A DNA stretch of 15,754 nucleotides from Solirubrobacterales bacterium. Lineage in GTDB: Bacteria > Actinomycetota > Thermoleophilia > Solirubrobacterales > Solirubrobacteraceae. The notes beneath the pieces are model-generated. The model ran no database searches, was not told the origin of the DNA, and saw nothing but the letters and a program-made list of their open reading frames with translations. The first letter of the stretch is position 1. Each line of letters starts with the position of its first letter. The DNA lies in NCBI GenBank assembly GCA_003157595.1, contig PMKB01000298.1, positions 4,046-19,799 on the forward strand. The letters run 5' to 3'. The translations under genes were made by a program, and so were the position numbers. Positions 1 through 6,654 of this stretch are shown in pieces.

Positions 1-857
1 CCTCGATGGGAACGACGGCGCCGGCCGGAAGCCTCGTGCTGACCCGGCCAATCGACGGCGCTCCGCTGCGCCGCGGGATGATCGTCGCCTTCCACGTACC
101 GGCCACCGGCCAGGTCTACATGCACCGGGTCGCGCAGCTGTTGCCTGGCGGGCAGTTTCGCACGCGTGGCGACCTGAACATCTCCGACGACGGCTGGGAG
201 CTAGGTCGCAGCTCGATCGTCGGCGTGCCGGTGGCAATCGTCCCCGACCTTGGCTGGTTGGTGATGGGCCTTCCGTGGGCGCTGGCCGTGCTCGCGGCGG
301 GAGCGATCATCAGCTTCGCACTTCCGCGCTTCCTGCGTCCGGCTATGCGCTCGGTCACGGTTGGCGGCGCGGTCGCGCTGCCGCTGTACGTCATTCGGCC
401 GTTTGTGCGGGTTGCGGTCGCGAGCGCGGGACGGGTCGCCGCCGTCGCCCCCGCCCGCGCCGCCACCGCCTCGGTGGGCCACCACGGCGGCGTCACGCCG
501 GCGGCCTCCTCACACTCCGGCGCCAACTTCCTCGCGCGACTCGTCAACGGCGGGGTACTGCCGCTGCGCGTCAGCATGCGCGGGACGCACACCGTGATCG
601 CGCCTGGTCACGCCGGGATCATCGCGGCCCATCTCGCCCGACACGCAACCTCGATGTTGCAGGCGCATCCAATCCTGCCGATCTGGGCCTGGGTGGCGCT
701 AGTGGCTCTCGTGCTCTCCCCGCTCCCGGTCGGCCTGCTGGCGTTGCGCGACGGGGCCACCACGACCGCGCCGGATCGGGCCCGTTGGCGCCGCCTTGCC
801 GGCGCGGCGGCGAACTGGCTAAGTATCGGCCGCGAAGCGGCCGATAACGGCGGGTGA
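1..857 (+). CDS. SipW-like type I signal peptidase, 5' end cut by window
   Basis: This is the 3' part of a membrane-bound signal peptidase of the SipW/archaeal (S26B) type, which removes signal peptides outside the membrane. The frame is open from base 3. The codons at 3-8 read Ser-Met, matching the catalytic Ser-Met of the family, so the ATG at 6 is an internal Met and not the start. Counting that Met as residue 1, the His in YMHRV (His40) fits the His that replaces Lys in SipW-type enzymes. RTRGDLN (52-58) followed by DD matches the conserved TKGDxN...D box, and the VVG-like strand and IPDLGW follow. Hydrophobic segments lie at about 84-106, 118-138 and 224-248. The Ala/His-rich stretch and last membrane segment (140-250) go beyond the usual SipW core. 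Two proteins with SipW-type signal peptides follow directly and are the likely substrates. The family assignment is good; substrate pairing is inferred from context. Confidence 0.85.
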   Translation, partial: SMGTTAPAGSLVLTRPIDGAPLRRGMIVAFHVPATGQVYMHRVAQLLPGGQFRTRGDLNISDDGWELGRSSIVGVPVAIVPDLGWLVMGLPWALAVLAAGAIISFALPRFLRPAMRSVTVGGAVALPLYVIRPFVRVAVASAGRVAAVAPARAATASVGHHGGVTPAASSHSGANFLARLVNGGVLPLRVSMRGTHTVIAPGHAGIIAAHLARHATSMLQAHPILPIWAWVALVALVLSPLPVGLLALRDGATTTAPDRARWRRLAGAAANWLSIGREAADNGG

Positions 858-1699: not shown

Positions 1700-4534
1700 G
1701 TGAACGCCCTCACCGTTAAGCTGCGCCGGCCCAGCGGCCGCCTGGTCCGGAGGGCGATCCTGTTCGCCCTCCCGCTGTTCCTGGTGGCGGCCGCGACGCC
1801 GACGCTCGCCGCGTTCACTGCGACGATCACGGGCAGCGGACACGACACCGCCGCGTCGGTCGTGCTGACGACGACGCCGACGGGGGGCAGCATCTGCACC
1901 TCGACGGGCGGGACCAACACCCCGTTCAGCAGTGACGCCACCAGCTGCGCCGGGAACGTGTGGCCGAGCACAGAGCTCTCGAGCAGTTCCTCCAGCTCGC
2001 TCGCGAGCACGTTTGCAACGGCCGGCACATCAGCCCCCAGCTCCGCGACGCTCACCAGCGCAGCCGCCGGGCTTGCGGTCGAGAGCGATGGCTCCGGCGA
2101 CGGTGACGATGGGTTTCCGCTCGGCGGCGTGACGTTCGGCGCGAGCGGCCCGCTGAGCGCCGCGGCGGCCACCTTCAACGGCTCGACCGGCAGGCTGGAG
2201 ACGCAGGAGAAGGTCGCCAGCCCGTCGTCGGGCAACTTCACGCTTTCCGCCTGGTTCAAGGTCGCGAGCGGCTACTCGAGCGGCGGCGAGATCGTCGGGT
2301 TTGGCAACAGCCAGGCGGGAACGCCGACCGCGTGGGCCCCCAACCTGTGGATGGACAACTCCGGTCACATCGCCGCCAGCGAGTACTCGGGAGCCAACCA
2401 GGTCGCCACCACCGCGGCCGTCTACAACACCGGAAGCTGGTACTACGTCGTGGCATCGTTCAGCTCGACGGCGGGGCTGAAGATCTATGTCAACGGCAGC
2501 TCGGTGGCGACCAACACCAGCGCGACCTCGGGCCAGGCCTACGTCGGCTACTGGACGGTCGGCTGGGCCTACGGGTCGAGCTACGCGCCGACCCCGTCGA
2601 GCTACTACCTCGCCGGCTCGCTCGCCGAGGTCGCCGTGTTTCCCTCGACGCTGTCGTCCACGCAGGTGACCACGCTCTACGGCAGCGGGACGGGAACCGA
2701 GTCGAGCTTCGAGACCCGCGTGCTGGCCGACTCTCCCGGCGAGTTCTGGCCGCTGCAGTCGGCGTCCACGACAACCAACCTGCCCGTTCTCGCCTCGCTT
2801 CCCGACGTCTCCGGCAACAACAACCTCGGGACGCCGATGGGTGGCGTCACGCCCTCCGACGACGGCCCGTTCCCGAGCGACGGCGCGATGTACTTCGATG
2901 GCGCGAACGACGGGACGAGCTGGGTTGAGACGGCGACCCACAATGCGGCGCTGCCGGCGAGCTTCACGATCGCTGCGTGGTTTCGGATGCCGAGCGGCTC
3001 GAGCAGCGGTGGGGGCATCCTCACGCTGGATACGACGCAGGCTGGCGGCGGGTCCAGTCACGATCCCCTCCTGTGGATGGACAACAGCGGAAAGATCGTG
3101 GCTGGCACCTACCCGACGGCCAACCAAGCCGCCACCTCGCCGGCCGCGTACAACGACGGCCACTGGCACTTCGCCGTGGCGACCGTCAGCTCGGCGGGGC
3201 TCAAGCTCTATATCGACGGCACCCTCGTCGTGACCAATGCCAGCGGCACCGCCGGCGGCACGCAGGGCGGATACTGGCTGATCGGCCAGGGCGACGAGGG
3301 CAACTGGTCGGACCCGCCGACGAACAAGTACTGGACCGGCGAGCTTGCACATGTCGCGTACTTCGCGTCGGCACTGACGGCAAGCCAGGTCTCGACGCTG
3401 TACGGCGAGGCCGGCCTCGGCGCGTTCGAGGCGCAGGTGCTCGCCGACTCGCCGCTCTACTACTGGCCGCTCACAGACAGCGGCACCACCGAGAGCGAGG
3501 CCTTTCCGTTCTTTCAGGTCGAGCCAGACGCCTCCAGCGCAAATAACGATGCCACGGCGGTCGGGAGCACGGTCACGCTGGGAATCCCCGGGCCGTTCAG
3601 CTCGTCGAGCTACGCGGCCGCGCTGACCGGCTCGACCGGCTACCTCGAGACCGCCGACGCGATCGCGTCAGGCTCCGATCCCGACACCTTCTCGCTCGTG
3701 GCATGGTTCAAGGCGCCGAGCCATGCGACGGGGGGCGGGATAATCGGCTACGACGCCGCGCAGAGCGGGGCGGGAGTCTCGCACGACCGCCAGATCTGGA
3801 TGGACAACAGCGGCAAGATCGTGGCGGGCATCAACGGCGGCAGCGGCGTCGAGGCGGCGTCGAGCTTGACCTACGACAACAATGCCTGGCACCTGGTGGT
3901 CGCCGTCTTCACGCCCACCACGCTGACGCTCTACGTCGACGGCGCGCAGGTCGGGAGCGCCACCTCCGGTATCAGCGACCTCAACTACGCCGGCTACTGG
4001 ACGGTGGGGTTCATGAACAACACCGGCACCTGGGCCGACATGCCGACCAACGAGGAATGGACCGGCGCGCTCGCGGATGTGGCCGTGATCGGATCTGCGG
4101 TCTCCTCCGCCACCGACACGACGATCCACGGCGAAGCCTCGCAGTCGGCGCTCAACACCGAGCTCCTGTCGCTTTCGCCGACCGCCTACTGGCCGCTCAG
4201 CGGCCTCGCGGGCGCCCCAACCGACGACGGCGGCGTCGAGGTCTCGGTTCAGGCCGCCAACAACGGCACGACGACCTGCCTGTTCCCGGCAGGCTCCGGG
4301 AGCTGCCCGGCGCTCAGCGAGTCCGACCTGTTCCCCGGCGTGGCCGCGTGGACGTCGGCCGCCCCGACGGCGGCGCACTCCACGACCGTCACACTCGCCG
4401 CGGAGAACTCGAGCACGCCACCCGCGGCCTTCGTCGGCCTGCACTTCATCGCTCCGATGACCTTCTCGGGCGCGGTCTCGGGCAGCTCGTGGAGCGCTTC
4501 GCTCGCCTACCTCTCCGCCAACTTCGAGTTTTGA
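1700..4534 (+). CDS. Large secreted LamG-repeat protein built on a split TasA-like scaffold
   Basis: This is a 944-residue secreted protein. A GTG start is followed by a basic n-region (8-18), a hydrophobic core (19-34) and TLAAFTATITG, a SipW-type junction like that of the upstream protein. Residues 38-125 look like the N-terminal half of a TasA-like domain, with a Cys pair (C66/C83). An acidic Gly/Asp linker (128-138) leads to three LamG/concanavalin-like modules (about 155-330, 395-571, 638-812). Each module carries WMDNSG (217, 459, 700), a KIYVNG/KLYIDG/TLYVDG strand and a W/Y-TG/AG-x-LA motif. Residues 845-944 match the C-terminal part of the 237-residue neighbour around a second Cys pair (C860/C869). 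LamG folds commonly bind glycans or matrix proteins, so a surface adhesin or fibre-decorating role is plausible. The binding target cannot be told. The gene ends inside the 3' end of the convergent pabAB. Confidence 0.8.
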   Translation: MNALTVKLRRPSGRLVRRAILFALPLFLVAAATPTLAAFTATITGSGHDTAASVVLTTTPTGGSICTSTGGTNTPFSSDATSCAGNVWPSTELSSSSSSSLASTFATAGTSAPSSATLTSAAAGLAVESDGSGDGDDGFPLGGVTFGASGPLSAAAATFNGSTGRLETQEKVASPSSGNFTLSAWFKVASGYSSGGEIVGFGNSQAGTPTAWAPNLWMDNSGHIAASEYSGANQVATTAAVYNTGSWYYVVASFSSTAGLKIYVNGSSVATNTSATSGQAYVGYWTVGWAYGSSYAPTPSSYYLAGSLAEVAVFPSTLSSTQVTTLYGSGTGTESSFETRVLADSPGEFWPLQSASTTTNLPVLASLPDVSGNNNLGTPMGGVTPSDDGPFPSDGAMYFDGANDGTSWVETATHNAALPASFTIAAWFRMPSGSSSGGGILTLDTTQAGGGSSHDPLLWMDNSGKIVAGTYPTANQAATSPAAYNDGHWHFAVATVSSAGLKLYIDGTLVVTNASGTAGGTQGGYWLIGQGDEGNWSDPPTNKYWTGELAHVAYFASALTASQVSTLYGEAGLGAFEAQVLADSPLYYWPLTDSGTTESEAFPFFQVEPDASSANNDATAVGSTVTLGIPGPFSSSSYAAALTGSTGYLETADAIASGSDPDTFSLVAWFKAPSHATGGGIIGYDAAQSGAGVSHDRQIWMDNSGKIVAGINGGSGVEAASSLTYDNNAWHLVVAVFTPTTLTLYVDGAQVGSATSGISDLNYAGYWTVGFMNNTGTWADMPTNEEWTGALADVAVIGSAVSSATDTTIHGEASQSALNTELLSLSPTAYWPLSGLAGAPTDDGGVEVSVQAANNGTTTCLFPAGSGSCPALSESDLFPGVAAWTSAAPTAAHSTTVTLAAENSSTPPAAFVGLHFIAPMTFSGAVSGSSWSASLAYLSANFEF
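2162..2689 (+). repeat. LamG-like module 1 (in-frame repeat)
   Basis: This first of three related modules of about 175 codons covers roughly residues 155-330 of the large secreted protein. Shared landmarks with modules 2 and 3 are a GSTGRLET-like opening, FTLSAWFK, NLWMDNSG, a short KIYVNG strand, GYWTVG, and LAGSLAEVAVF before the closing TLYG. Boundaries are approximate. Confidence 0.7.
2882..3412 (+). repeat. LamG-like module 2 (in-frame repeat)
   Basis: This second module covers roughly residues 395-571, with FTIAAWFR, LLWMDNSGKIVAG, LKLYIDG, GGYWLIG, WTGELAHVAYF and the closing STLYGEA. The preceding linker carries VLADSPGEFWPL (2720-2755). The linker after it carries VLADSPLYYWPL (3437-3472). 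Confidence 0.7.
3611..4135 (+). repeat. LamG-like module 3 (in-frame repeat)
   Basis: This third module covers roughly residues 638-812, with FSLVAWFK, QIWMDNSGKIVAG, LTLYVDG, AGYWTVG, WTGALADVAVI and the closing TIHGEA. A third, weaker linker copy LLSLSPTAYWPL (4163-4198) follows and then runs straight into the C-terminal TasA-like half. Confidence 0.7.
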
Positions 4535-6654
4535 GCGGCGCCCAGGCGCGCGCTGTCGCGGTGGCCGTGCAGCGCGAGCCCGACGGCCTCGAGCGGCGCG
4601 CGCGCTTTCAGCAGCAGTTCGCGCAACTCGGCGCGGGCGTCCGACTGCACGGTGATCGCGCCGCCGGCGCCGATCGTCATCGCCTGGTGGGAGTTGACGA
4701 TCGTGCGGATCGCGATGCTGAGGTCGGCGCTGCCGTTGGCCGCGAGGTAGCCGATCGCGCCCGCGTAGATGCCGCGTGGTCGTGTCTCGATGCGGTCGAG
4801 CAGCTCCATCGTGCGCGGCTTGGGAGCGCCGGTCATCGAGCCGCCGGGGAAGGATGCCCGCAGCGCGTCGACGATCGTGAGGCCGTCGCGCAGCCGCGCC
4901 TGCACGGTCGAGACGAGCTGATGCACGGTCTGGTAGCTCTCGACGGCCATCAGGCCGGGCACGCGCACCGAGCCGATTTCGGCGACGCGGCCGAGGTCGT
5001 TGCGCAGGACGTCGACGATCATCAGGTTCTCCGCGCGGTCCTTGCCGGCGGACCGCAGCCGCGCCGCCGCCTCGCGATCCTCGCGCGGCGTCGCGCCGCG
5101 CGCGACGGTACCCTTGATCGGCCTGGCCTCAAGGCGTCGCGAGCGGTCCAGCGCGAGGAACCGCTCGGGTGAGGAGCTGGAGACCTCGACCCCGCCCAGA
5201 CGCAGGAACGCCGCGAAGGGAGCCGGGTTGACGCGGCGCAGCACTCGGTGCAGGCCGAGCGCGTCCGCGCACGGCTGAGCGCTCAGCTCGTTGGTGAGGC
5301 AGATTTCATAGCTCTCGCCCGCCGCGAGATAGCGCTTGCAGGCCTCGATGTCGGCGAGGTAGTCCTCCGCGGAGCGCCGCAGTGCGAAGGCCGTGCGCCC
5401 GCCGGGCTGCGGTGGAACGGGCGGCGGCGATGAGCGGACGCGGCGCAGCCGGCCGGCGGTCCGCTGCGCCCAGCTTGTCGCGTCCTCGCGACCCAAGGCC
5501 GTGGTCAAGCAGATCACGTGTGCCTCGTGCGCGGCGTGGTCGTAGGCGATCAGGCGGTCGGCGAACATCAGCATCGCATCGGGGAGGCGCGAGCGGTGCA
5601 CGAGCGCACTGCCGCACTCGGCCTTCAGCTCGTAACCGAGGTAGCCGACGAAGCCGCCGGTGAAGTCGAAGGGAAGATCTCGAGCTTCCAGCGAGATCTC
5701 CGCCAGCGCGCGATCGAGCCAGTCGAAGAGGCCGCCGCCGTGGGTCTCGCGGCGCCCGGCGCGATCCACCGTCAGCTGGCCGGCGGCGACGTCGTGGCTG
5801 ACCAGCGCGGAAAGCGGGCCGCCGCCCGCGCCCATGTACGAAAACCTTCCGAGCGGCGCGCCCTCGCAGCTCGAGTCCAGCCAGAATGCGTTTGGCTCCT
5901 CACCGTAAAGCTGGACGAAAGCGGCCTCGGCATCCGGTGGCCGGCGCACGGACCGGACGACGAGCTCGAGCCGTTGCTCTGAGCGCCCCGCTGGCAGCGG
6001 TCGCGAAGGCCGCGCGGCGGGGGTCGGGGCGGTGCGTCCGCGGCGCCCGACGGCTCGCCGGCGACTCGCCAGGCGGCAGAAGTTCTCGAGCAGTCGCGCA
6101 CCCCACTCGGTCTGGACCGACTCCGGATGAAACTGCACGCCCCAATGCGGGTGTTCGCGGTGGCGAACCGCCATCACCGTGCCCGACGCCGTGCGGGCTA
6201 GTACCTCGAGCGCTGCGGGCAGCGGCTCGCGAACCGACAGCGAGTGGTAGCGCACCGCGAGAAAGCCCTGGGGGATCCCGAGGAACAGCTCGGAGCCGTG
6301 GTGGAAGATGCGGCTGCGACGCCCGTGCATCGGACGCGGCGCGGCGCCGATCTCGCCGCCATGGGCGAGCACGAGGCCCTGGTGCCCGAGGCAGACCCCG
6401 AGCACAGGCAGGTCCGCCTGCGCCAGGGCGCTGCGTGAGAGGCCGAAGTCGCGCGCGCGGTCGGGTCGTCCGGGGCCGGCTGAGATCACGCAGCGCGAGA
6501 AGCGCCCGGCGTCGAGCGCCCGCCACTCGATCTCGTCGTTGCGCACGACCACCGGCTCGCGACCCTCGACGACCGCCAACAGGTGGAAGAGGTTGAAGGT
6601 GTTCGAATCGTGGTTGTCGATCAGGAGCGTCGTCAACGTGGCCTCATGACGCAT
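4507..6654 (-). CDS. pabAB: Aminodeoxychorismate synthase, fused PabA-PabB
   Basis: This cytoplasmic enzyme makes 4-amino-4-deoxychorismate from chorismate and glutamine for p-aminobenzoate and folate (715 aa). Residues 8-192 are the glutamine amidotransferase, with the nucleophile Cys88 in GVCLGHQG and the His176/Glu178 pair in QFHPES. A Pro/Arg-rich linker (about 198-226) leads to the chorismate-binding half (228-692). Landmarks there are the N-domain FWLDSS (257-262), then RPIKGT (511-516), AENLMIVD (541-548), RNDLGR (551-556) and GGSMTGAPK (604-612). Lys514 in PIKGT marks PabB; anthranilate synthase TrpE has Ala at that place. The fused form is familiar from actinomycetes. The ATG at 6654 sits just before the first strand. 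The 3' end overlaps the convergent LamG gene by 28 nt. The final 20 or so residues (LHGHRD...KLAER) extend past the usual end. Confidence 0.92.
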   Translation of the reverse strand: MRHEATLTTLLIDNHDSNTFNLFHLLAVVEGREPVVVRNDEIEWRALDAGRFSRCVISAGPGRPDRARDFGLSRSALAQADLPVLGVCLGHQGLVLAHGGEIGAAPRPMHGRRSRIFHHGSELFLGIPQGFLAVRYHSLSVREPLPAALEVLARTASGTVMAVRHREHPHWGVQFHPESVQTEWGARLLENFCRLASRRRAVGRRGRTAPTPAARPSRPLPAGRSEQRLELVVRSVRRPPDAEAAFVQLYGEEPNAFWLDSSCEGAPLGRFSYMGAGGGPLSALVSHDVAAGQLTVDRAGRRETHGGGLFDWLDRALAEISLEARDLPFDFTGGFVGYLGYELKAECGSALVHRSRLPDAMLMFADRLIAYDHAAHEAHVICLTTALGREDATSWAQRTAGRLRRVRSSPPPVPPQPGGRTAFALRRSAEDYLADIEACKRYLAAGESYEICLTNELSAQPCADALGLHRVLRRVNPAPFAAFLRLGGVEVSSSSPERFLALDRSRRLEARPIKGTVARGATPREDREAAARLRSAGKDRAENLMIVDVLRNDLGRVAEIGSVRVPGLMAVESYQTVHQLVSTVQARLRDGLTIVDALRASFPGGSMTGAPKPRTMELLDRIETRPRGIYAGAIGYLAANGSADLSIAIRTIVNSHQAMTIGAGGAITVQSDARAELRELLLKARAPLEAVGLALHGHRDSARLGAAQNSKLAER

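Follow-up and report, generated by a model that had tools for sequence, protein, structure and literature searches.

We describe a protein of 944 amino acids encoded at positions 1700-4534 of the window, a 15,754-nucleotide stretch of contig PMKB01000298.1 from a soil bacterium of the Solirubrobacterales. On the same (+) strand, it is preceded by the 3' part of a SipW-type signal peptidase gene (3-857) and by the gene of a 237-residue TasA-like protein (922-1635). Judged from profile comparisons, both ends of the large protein are homologous to the small one and keep its order, while an array of LamG modules lies between them. We consider it probable that the large protein is a diverged copy of a TasA-type subunit, whose LamG array replaces the segment C135-C153 between two beta strands, and that it acts as a minor, probably terminal, fiber adhesin or cross-linker. 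The features on which the argument depends are as follows.

1700-4534, + strand: the 944-residue split protein, consisting of a TasA-like N-half, the LamG array, a TasA-like C-half, and a C-terminal extension (profile and alignment evidence)
1700-1810, + strand: signal peptide (residues 1-37); as in TasA, the putative cleavage site has a Phe, Phe39, at P2' (small-family alignment)
1811-2065, + strand: TasA-like N-half, residues 38-122, with Cys66 and Cys83 (hhalign to small-family columns 1-89)
2066-4228, + strand: inserted array, residues 123-843 (between the two profile matches)
2072-2698, + strand: LamG body 1, approximately residues 125-333 (PF13385, structural match ranges)
2780-3421, + strand: LamG body 2, approximately residues 361-574 (PF13385 at 404-565, structural match ranges)
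3518-4156, + strand: a further array segment (PF02210 at 704-796, structural match ranges)
4229-4468, + strand: TasA-like C-half, residues 844-923, with Cys860 and Cys869 (hhalign to small-family columns 112-194)
4469-4531, + strand: conserved C-terminal extension, residues 924-944 (W931, A933, L935, Y937), confined to the large family
922-1635, + strand: TasA-like small subunit, 237 residues, with six cysteines in three putative pairs, 74/92, 135/153, and 167/176 (65-row alignment, fold matches, cysteines)
1324-1380, + strand: C135-C153 stretch of the small subunit, counterpart of the LamG insertion site (skipped between the profile matches; the family's only loop with a large insertion)

Both ends of the large protein are homologous to the small subunit

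A first-pass annotation, made by a model from the letters alone, proposed that two halves of the small protein can be traced at opposite ends of the large one. Profile-profile alignment bears this out, with hhalign expectation (E) values of 8.4e-11 for the N-half and 9.9e-9 for the C-half. The null model consisted of 100 column shuffles per end, plus reversed alignments. The N-half scored 64.7, against 12.2 +/- 2.3 for its shuffles (maximum, 19.8); the C-terminal match, which would have counted against the proposal had it been no better than shuffled sequence, scored 54.8, far above the shuffled maximum of 18.6 (12.7 +/- 2.4). Reversed alignments reached 10.8 and 10.7, and the LamG pieces aligned to the small family with E values of 0.22, 0.62, and 0.57.

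The relationship can also be detected between the two proteins alone, since BLASTP found the C-terminal match at 5e-6 and the N-terminal one at 0.006. When the small-family hidden Markov model (HMM) was run against the whole genome, the large open reading frame (ORF) gave two matches, one near its start (model positions 25-130, E 1.5e-5) and one near its end (97-222, E 5.8e-4), the two model ranges overlapping at 97-130. At the residue level, the translations confirm two details read earlier from the sequence: C167-D183 of the small protein (1420-1470) and C860-D876 of the large one (4277-4327) are identical at 11 of 17 positions, with equal cysteine spacing, and the N-terminal cysteine pair is spaced by 18 residues in the small protein (74/92) and 17 in the large one (66/83). 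The first-strand motif F/L-T/S-A/G-x-I is kept in the large protein and ranks first among 913 peptide windows compared with the first strand of the small family.

The split is a property of a family. A protein search, with scoring limited to the 7,988 candidates with the most shared words, returned at least 44 matches. P0001-P0026 cover at least 57% of the query at 58% identity or more; the other 18 (P0027-P0044, left unaligned) are LamG proteins without a match to the TasA-like ends. Alignment A1 holds the 26 matches and the window protein, and A3 is A1 minus the broken or partial P0025 and P0026. Both ends are present in 24 of the 27 large rows, the exceptions being the cut or broken P0007, P0025, and P0026; P0007, which has no N end, was excluded from N-half counts and trees, and P0012 and P0020, within the 24, start after the first strand. 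With filters off and E computed for 27 sequences, the small HMM placed 26 of the 27 rows above the HMMER inclusion threshold.

The array corresponds to one loop of the small subunit

It had further been suggested that the LamG head is presented from the loop where the small protein has its C135/C153 pair. Profile tests, cysteine correspondence, and a natural insertion in another protein support this site, which is conserved across the family. The profile matches stop at small residue 134 and restart at 154, so that the 19 residues C135-C153 stand against 721 residues (123-843) of the large protein. The four cysteines of the large protein (66, 83, 860, 869) correspond to the first two and last two of the six in the small one (74, 92, 135, 153, 167, 176). 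C860 and C869 occur in 25/25 A3 rows, and C66 and C83 are present in each of the 24 rows that extend to them.

The small-family alignment, A2, comprises the window protein and 64 database matches (65 rows); one of these, P0045, is the window's own protein with a later start, leaving 64 proteins. Here C135, C153, C167, and C176 are found in 65/65 rows, C74 in 64/65, and C92 in 54/65. The C135-C153 loop measures 16 to 21 residues in 64 of the 65 rows and 98 in P0101, while the next most variable segment differs by 16 residues between its extremes. Since the P0101 loop carries an unrelated insert, the C135-C153 loop gained a separate insertion on another occasion. In P0101 (305 residues), this second kind of grafted module spans about 80 residues between YYGTDT and GFCGKVDVTI; it had no Pfam match at E 0.1.

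Pfam recognizes three LamG stretches in the large protein (PF13385, E 4.2e-52), which belongs to LamG both by profile match and by its jelly-roll fold. An NCBIfam match to the TafC fimbrial family (E 2.3e-5, far below its cut-off) was set aside, as its best stretch falls in the LamG part (165-332); TafC together with fimbrial retrieved nothing from the open-access literature. No type IV pilin N-terminal profile matched in Pfam or NCBIfam at E 1.

Distribution, phylogeny, and gene neighborhood

The first-pass annotation had called for a search for the same split in other genomes, and one was found in three of the 232 genomes of the order: the window's own, a second, and G368, where a C-terminal part lies at the end of a contig. 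Because one of the three is the window's own and one holds only a C-terminal part, the split is rare among the genomes searched; otherwise, it is known from database proteins. The full-length large protein occurs in 2/299 genomes of the class, including the window's own. A match in G361 was dropped on inspection as a chance frame.

In trees of the N halves, of the C halves, and of both together, the 24 large rows formed one clade each time, a pattern that is consistent with a single insertion into a duplicated subunit. An array-removed profile was searched against the 7,995 candidates with the most shared words (E 0.01). No intact insert-free form of the large subfamily was found among them; at least six proteins each covered one half (45 to 49% of the query). 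P0109 (C part) and P0114 (N part) lie on equal-sized contigs (55,981) and are apparently one broken gene, and the other four are short C-terminal pieces.

The large gene is linked to SipW-type peptidase and TasA-like genes. Gene orders at three loci are TasA-SipW-TasA-LamG (G000), TasA-TasA-SipW-LamG (G121), and LamG-TasA-SipW (L038); at the first, the second TasA-like gene lies upstream on the contig (L035:2897-3640). Moreover, judging from equal sizes of the longest contigs, a small-family cluster lies on the same contig as 8 of the 26 large clusters (P0001, P0006, P0007, P0009, P0013, P0019, P0022, and P0025). The SipW-type gene adjoins its substrates in all three loci examined, and the SipW and archaeal-type profile matches all fall below the curated cut-offs.

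3-857, + strand: SipW/endoplasmic reticulum-type signal peptidase, N-terminal part missing (TIGR02228, E 8.9e-6, below cut-off)

The N-terminal part of the peptidase is missing because a two-N gap removed the start of the gene: the two N at L035 4044-4045, immediately before the window, mark an assembly join within it. The first residues of the window are SMGT, which hold what we take to be the catalytic serine, and the translation contains MHR and GDLNxxDD motifs, presumably catalytic as well. For longer relatives in L036 and L038, the matches are to TIGR02228 and to the SipW family NF046067, likewise below cut-off. In all three peptidases (window 3-857; L036:6906-8282; L038:2093-3277), a long post-catalytic region contains a conserved LVN(G/S)G..PL stretch as well as another hydrophobic segment. 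A TasA-like domain was looked for in this extension and not found (profile against the small family, E 0.92, 3 sequences).

Locus L038 (CAJCHW010000088.1) and L055 (G368:C88) are of equal size (11,043), with identical ORFs and scores at identical positions. One is titled Chlamydiae bacterium and the other belongs to the GTDB family of the window genome; the record name is probably wrong.

Long matches to the small family are present in 4 of the 146 genomes of the GTDB family (G000, G121, G368, and G346), and short ones only in 3 more. The short matches, to C-terminal strands in G017 and G184 and to N-terminal parts in G166, belong to other small exported proteins and not to split proteins. In G166 (L060:4144-4926 and 4930-5529) and G184 (L057:4691-6142 and L058:3695-4462), other proteins have apparent SipW-type N-termini and a partial small-family profile match. 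The fiber family looks wider than the 65 aligned rows.

Proposed role in a fiber

During TasA fiber growth, each subunit supplies an N-terminal strand that occupies its neighbor's groove, and F39 contacts neighboring subunits (PMC9674648). The predicted model of the small protein is a beta sandwich whose closest solved fold is Bacillus subtilis TasA, and its F58, ten residues after the mature Phe and equivalent to TasA F39 by spacing, is F, L, A, or V in 65/65 small rows. By analogy, the SipW-type peptidase would cleave off the signal peptide, and the small subunits would probably polymerize by inserting the N-terminal strand of each into the groove of the next. The two halves of the large protein would form one TasA-like sandwich, with the array pointing outward, and, through donor-strand exchange, this sandwich could take up a minor, probably terminal, place in the small-subunit fiber. 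Its LamG head may then bind a glycan or matrix polymer, making the protein an adhesin or a fiber cross-linker. That the array is a fiber-borne head is our inference from the neighbor's TasA-like fold and the adjacent SipW-type gene.

Several observations weigh against this proposal. The tenth position after the mature Phe is polar or Gly in 22/22 large rows; with the hydrophobic residue lost, the strand may donate weakly or not at all. Together with the conserved C-terminal stretch, this loss may indicate a special, perhaps terminal, position, and it could equally mean that the large protein does not polymerize. P0020 falls under the HMMER inclusion threshold (E 0.038), and the array-free profile found no small-family match in the protein database, yet matches the small family in genomes. 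The large model is unreliable at both ends, with a predicted local distance difference test (pLDDT) score below 50 for residues 1-126 and most of 835-944, and speaks neither for nor against a single beta domain formed by the two ends. In the small model, confidence begins only at about residue 101, with template modeling (TM) scores to 8aur of 0.46 to 0.47 and a Foldseek superposition at a root mean square deviation of 10.3. Among the structural matches listed for the large model, all are LamG-like folds, which is uninformative about TasA. Pfam's TasA/camelysin family, PF12389, matches neither protein, was not hit by any of the 65 small rows at E 0.1, and is not found in the window's genome at E 10, though a B. 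subtilis control was positive; the small protein has no Pfam match of any kind at E 1.

The loss of the hydrophobic +10 position would also be expected if the large protein were a LamG protein of the surface or matrix, exported through SipW, that stays out of fibers, its TasA-like ends only framing the array or aiding export. The conserved C-terminal strand, absent from the small family, could then close the sheet and block donor-strand acceptance. However, the N-terminal strand is still the top match to the small first strand, and the large gene accompanies subunit and peptidase genes in varying order; we regard this alternative as rather unlikely.

The same C-terminal stretch of 21 residues bears on a slightly less probable alternative, a starter or cap resembling TapA, whose N-terminal strand would go to the first small subunit, its own groove being filled by the extra C-terminal strand. 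The stretch is conserved in 25 large rows (W 24, A 25, L 24, Y 24), and 65/65 small rows stop short of it. TapA has been proposed as the first donor-strand source in B. subtilis (PMC9674648), and a donate-only cap, Saci_0405, for archaeal threads (PMC9715654). Against this, the +10 position is polar, and the extension does not resemble a donor strand: as a copy of one, it was rejected at rank 9/913 (5 residues) and 68/883 (11 residues). The W-x-A-x-L-x-Y stretch (4469-4531) terminates in L, F, or Y in 25/25 large rows.

A domain swap, in which each half pairs with the complementary half of a neighboring molecule and the array spaces two fiber joints, would suit the lack of a confident single-chain model for either half and the exchange of strands between subunits in donor-strand systems (PMC9674648), but is very improbable, as the array was inserted in whole units and P0101 tolerates a loop insertion, both expected of an intact scaffold.

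Returning to the fiber-borne adhesin, we tentatively extend it to a class of modular donor-strand fiber subunits: lectin-split tip or starter adhesins in Solirubrobacterales, convergent with modular type IV pilins, with C135-C153 as a general grafting site.

Significance and comparison with known systems

TasA fibers are described mainly as matrix scaffolds. If a binding array can interrupt their subunits at one fixed loop, TasA-type fibers could carry adhesins as type IV pili do, and in an actinobacterial lineage for which no such fiber appeared among the open-access papers listed. The C135-C153 loop would mark a site that tolerates a foreign domain without disruption of the fold, and, with this gene pair, donor-strand assembly of a special subunit could be tested using just two purified proteins. 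Both the fiber-subunit fold and the binding domain are known; their split arrangement is new. TasA with LamG in this layout was not found among the open-access papers listed, as judged by titles and abstract beginnings, nor was a TasA/SipW fiber in Thermoleophilia among the best-matching entries.

The closest known system is B. subtilis TasA (fiber, 8AUR; monomer, 5OF1/5OF2), with SipW and TapA. Besides the fold, the likenesses include an adjacent SipW-type gene, a Phe at P2' of the mature N terminus, as described for TasA, and, in the small protein, a Phe ten residues after the first. In contrast, sequence searches detect no match to the TasA family, six cysteines are present in the small protein, and the excerpted sources describe no inserted LamG array in TasA or TapA. 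Archaeal threads (Saci_0406/0405) likewise consist of beta-sandwich subunits linked by donor strands, with a proposed cap protein, and the archaeal bundling pilin (7UEG) ranks fourth among the structural matches to the small protein; these pili are, however, archaeal, and no LamG array is described for them in the excerpts available. Actinobacterial LamG jellyroll proteins (Arthrobacter, Leifsonia; PF13385) have LamG modules about 31 to 34% identical to those of the large protein, but they show no match to the TasA-like ends and have other partners, some entries being named PKD or fibronectin type.

Modular type IV pilins (above all, in Streptococcus sanguinis, PilC with a lectin and PilB with a vWA module; PMC9934059, PMC8179133) offer the same division between a small filament subunit and a large binding module with a proposed tip location. 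Their pilin module and machinery are unrelated to TasA, whereas in the present protein a TasA-like beta sandwich is interrupted by the array. The nearest functional precedent for the LamG array, which would be the working part, is S. sanguinis PilC, a type IV pilin with a glycan-binding module of the concanavalin A-like lectin kind, placed in a proposed tip complex (PMC9934059).
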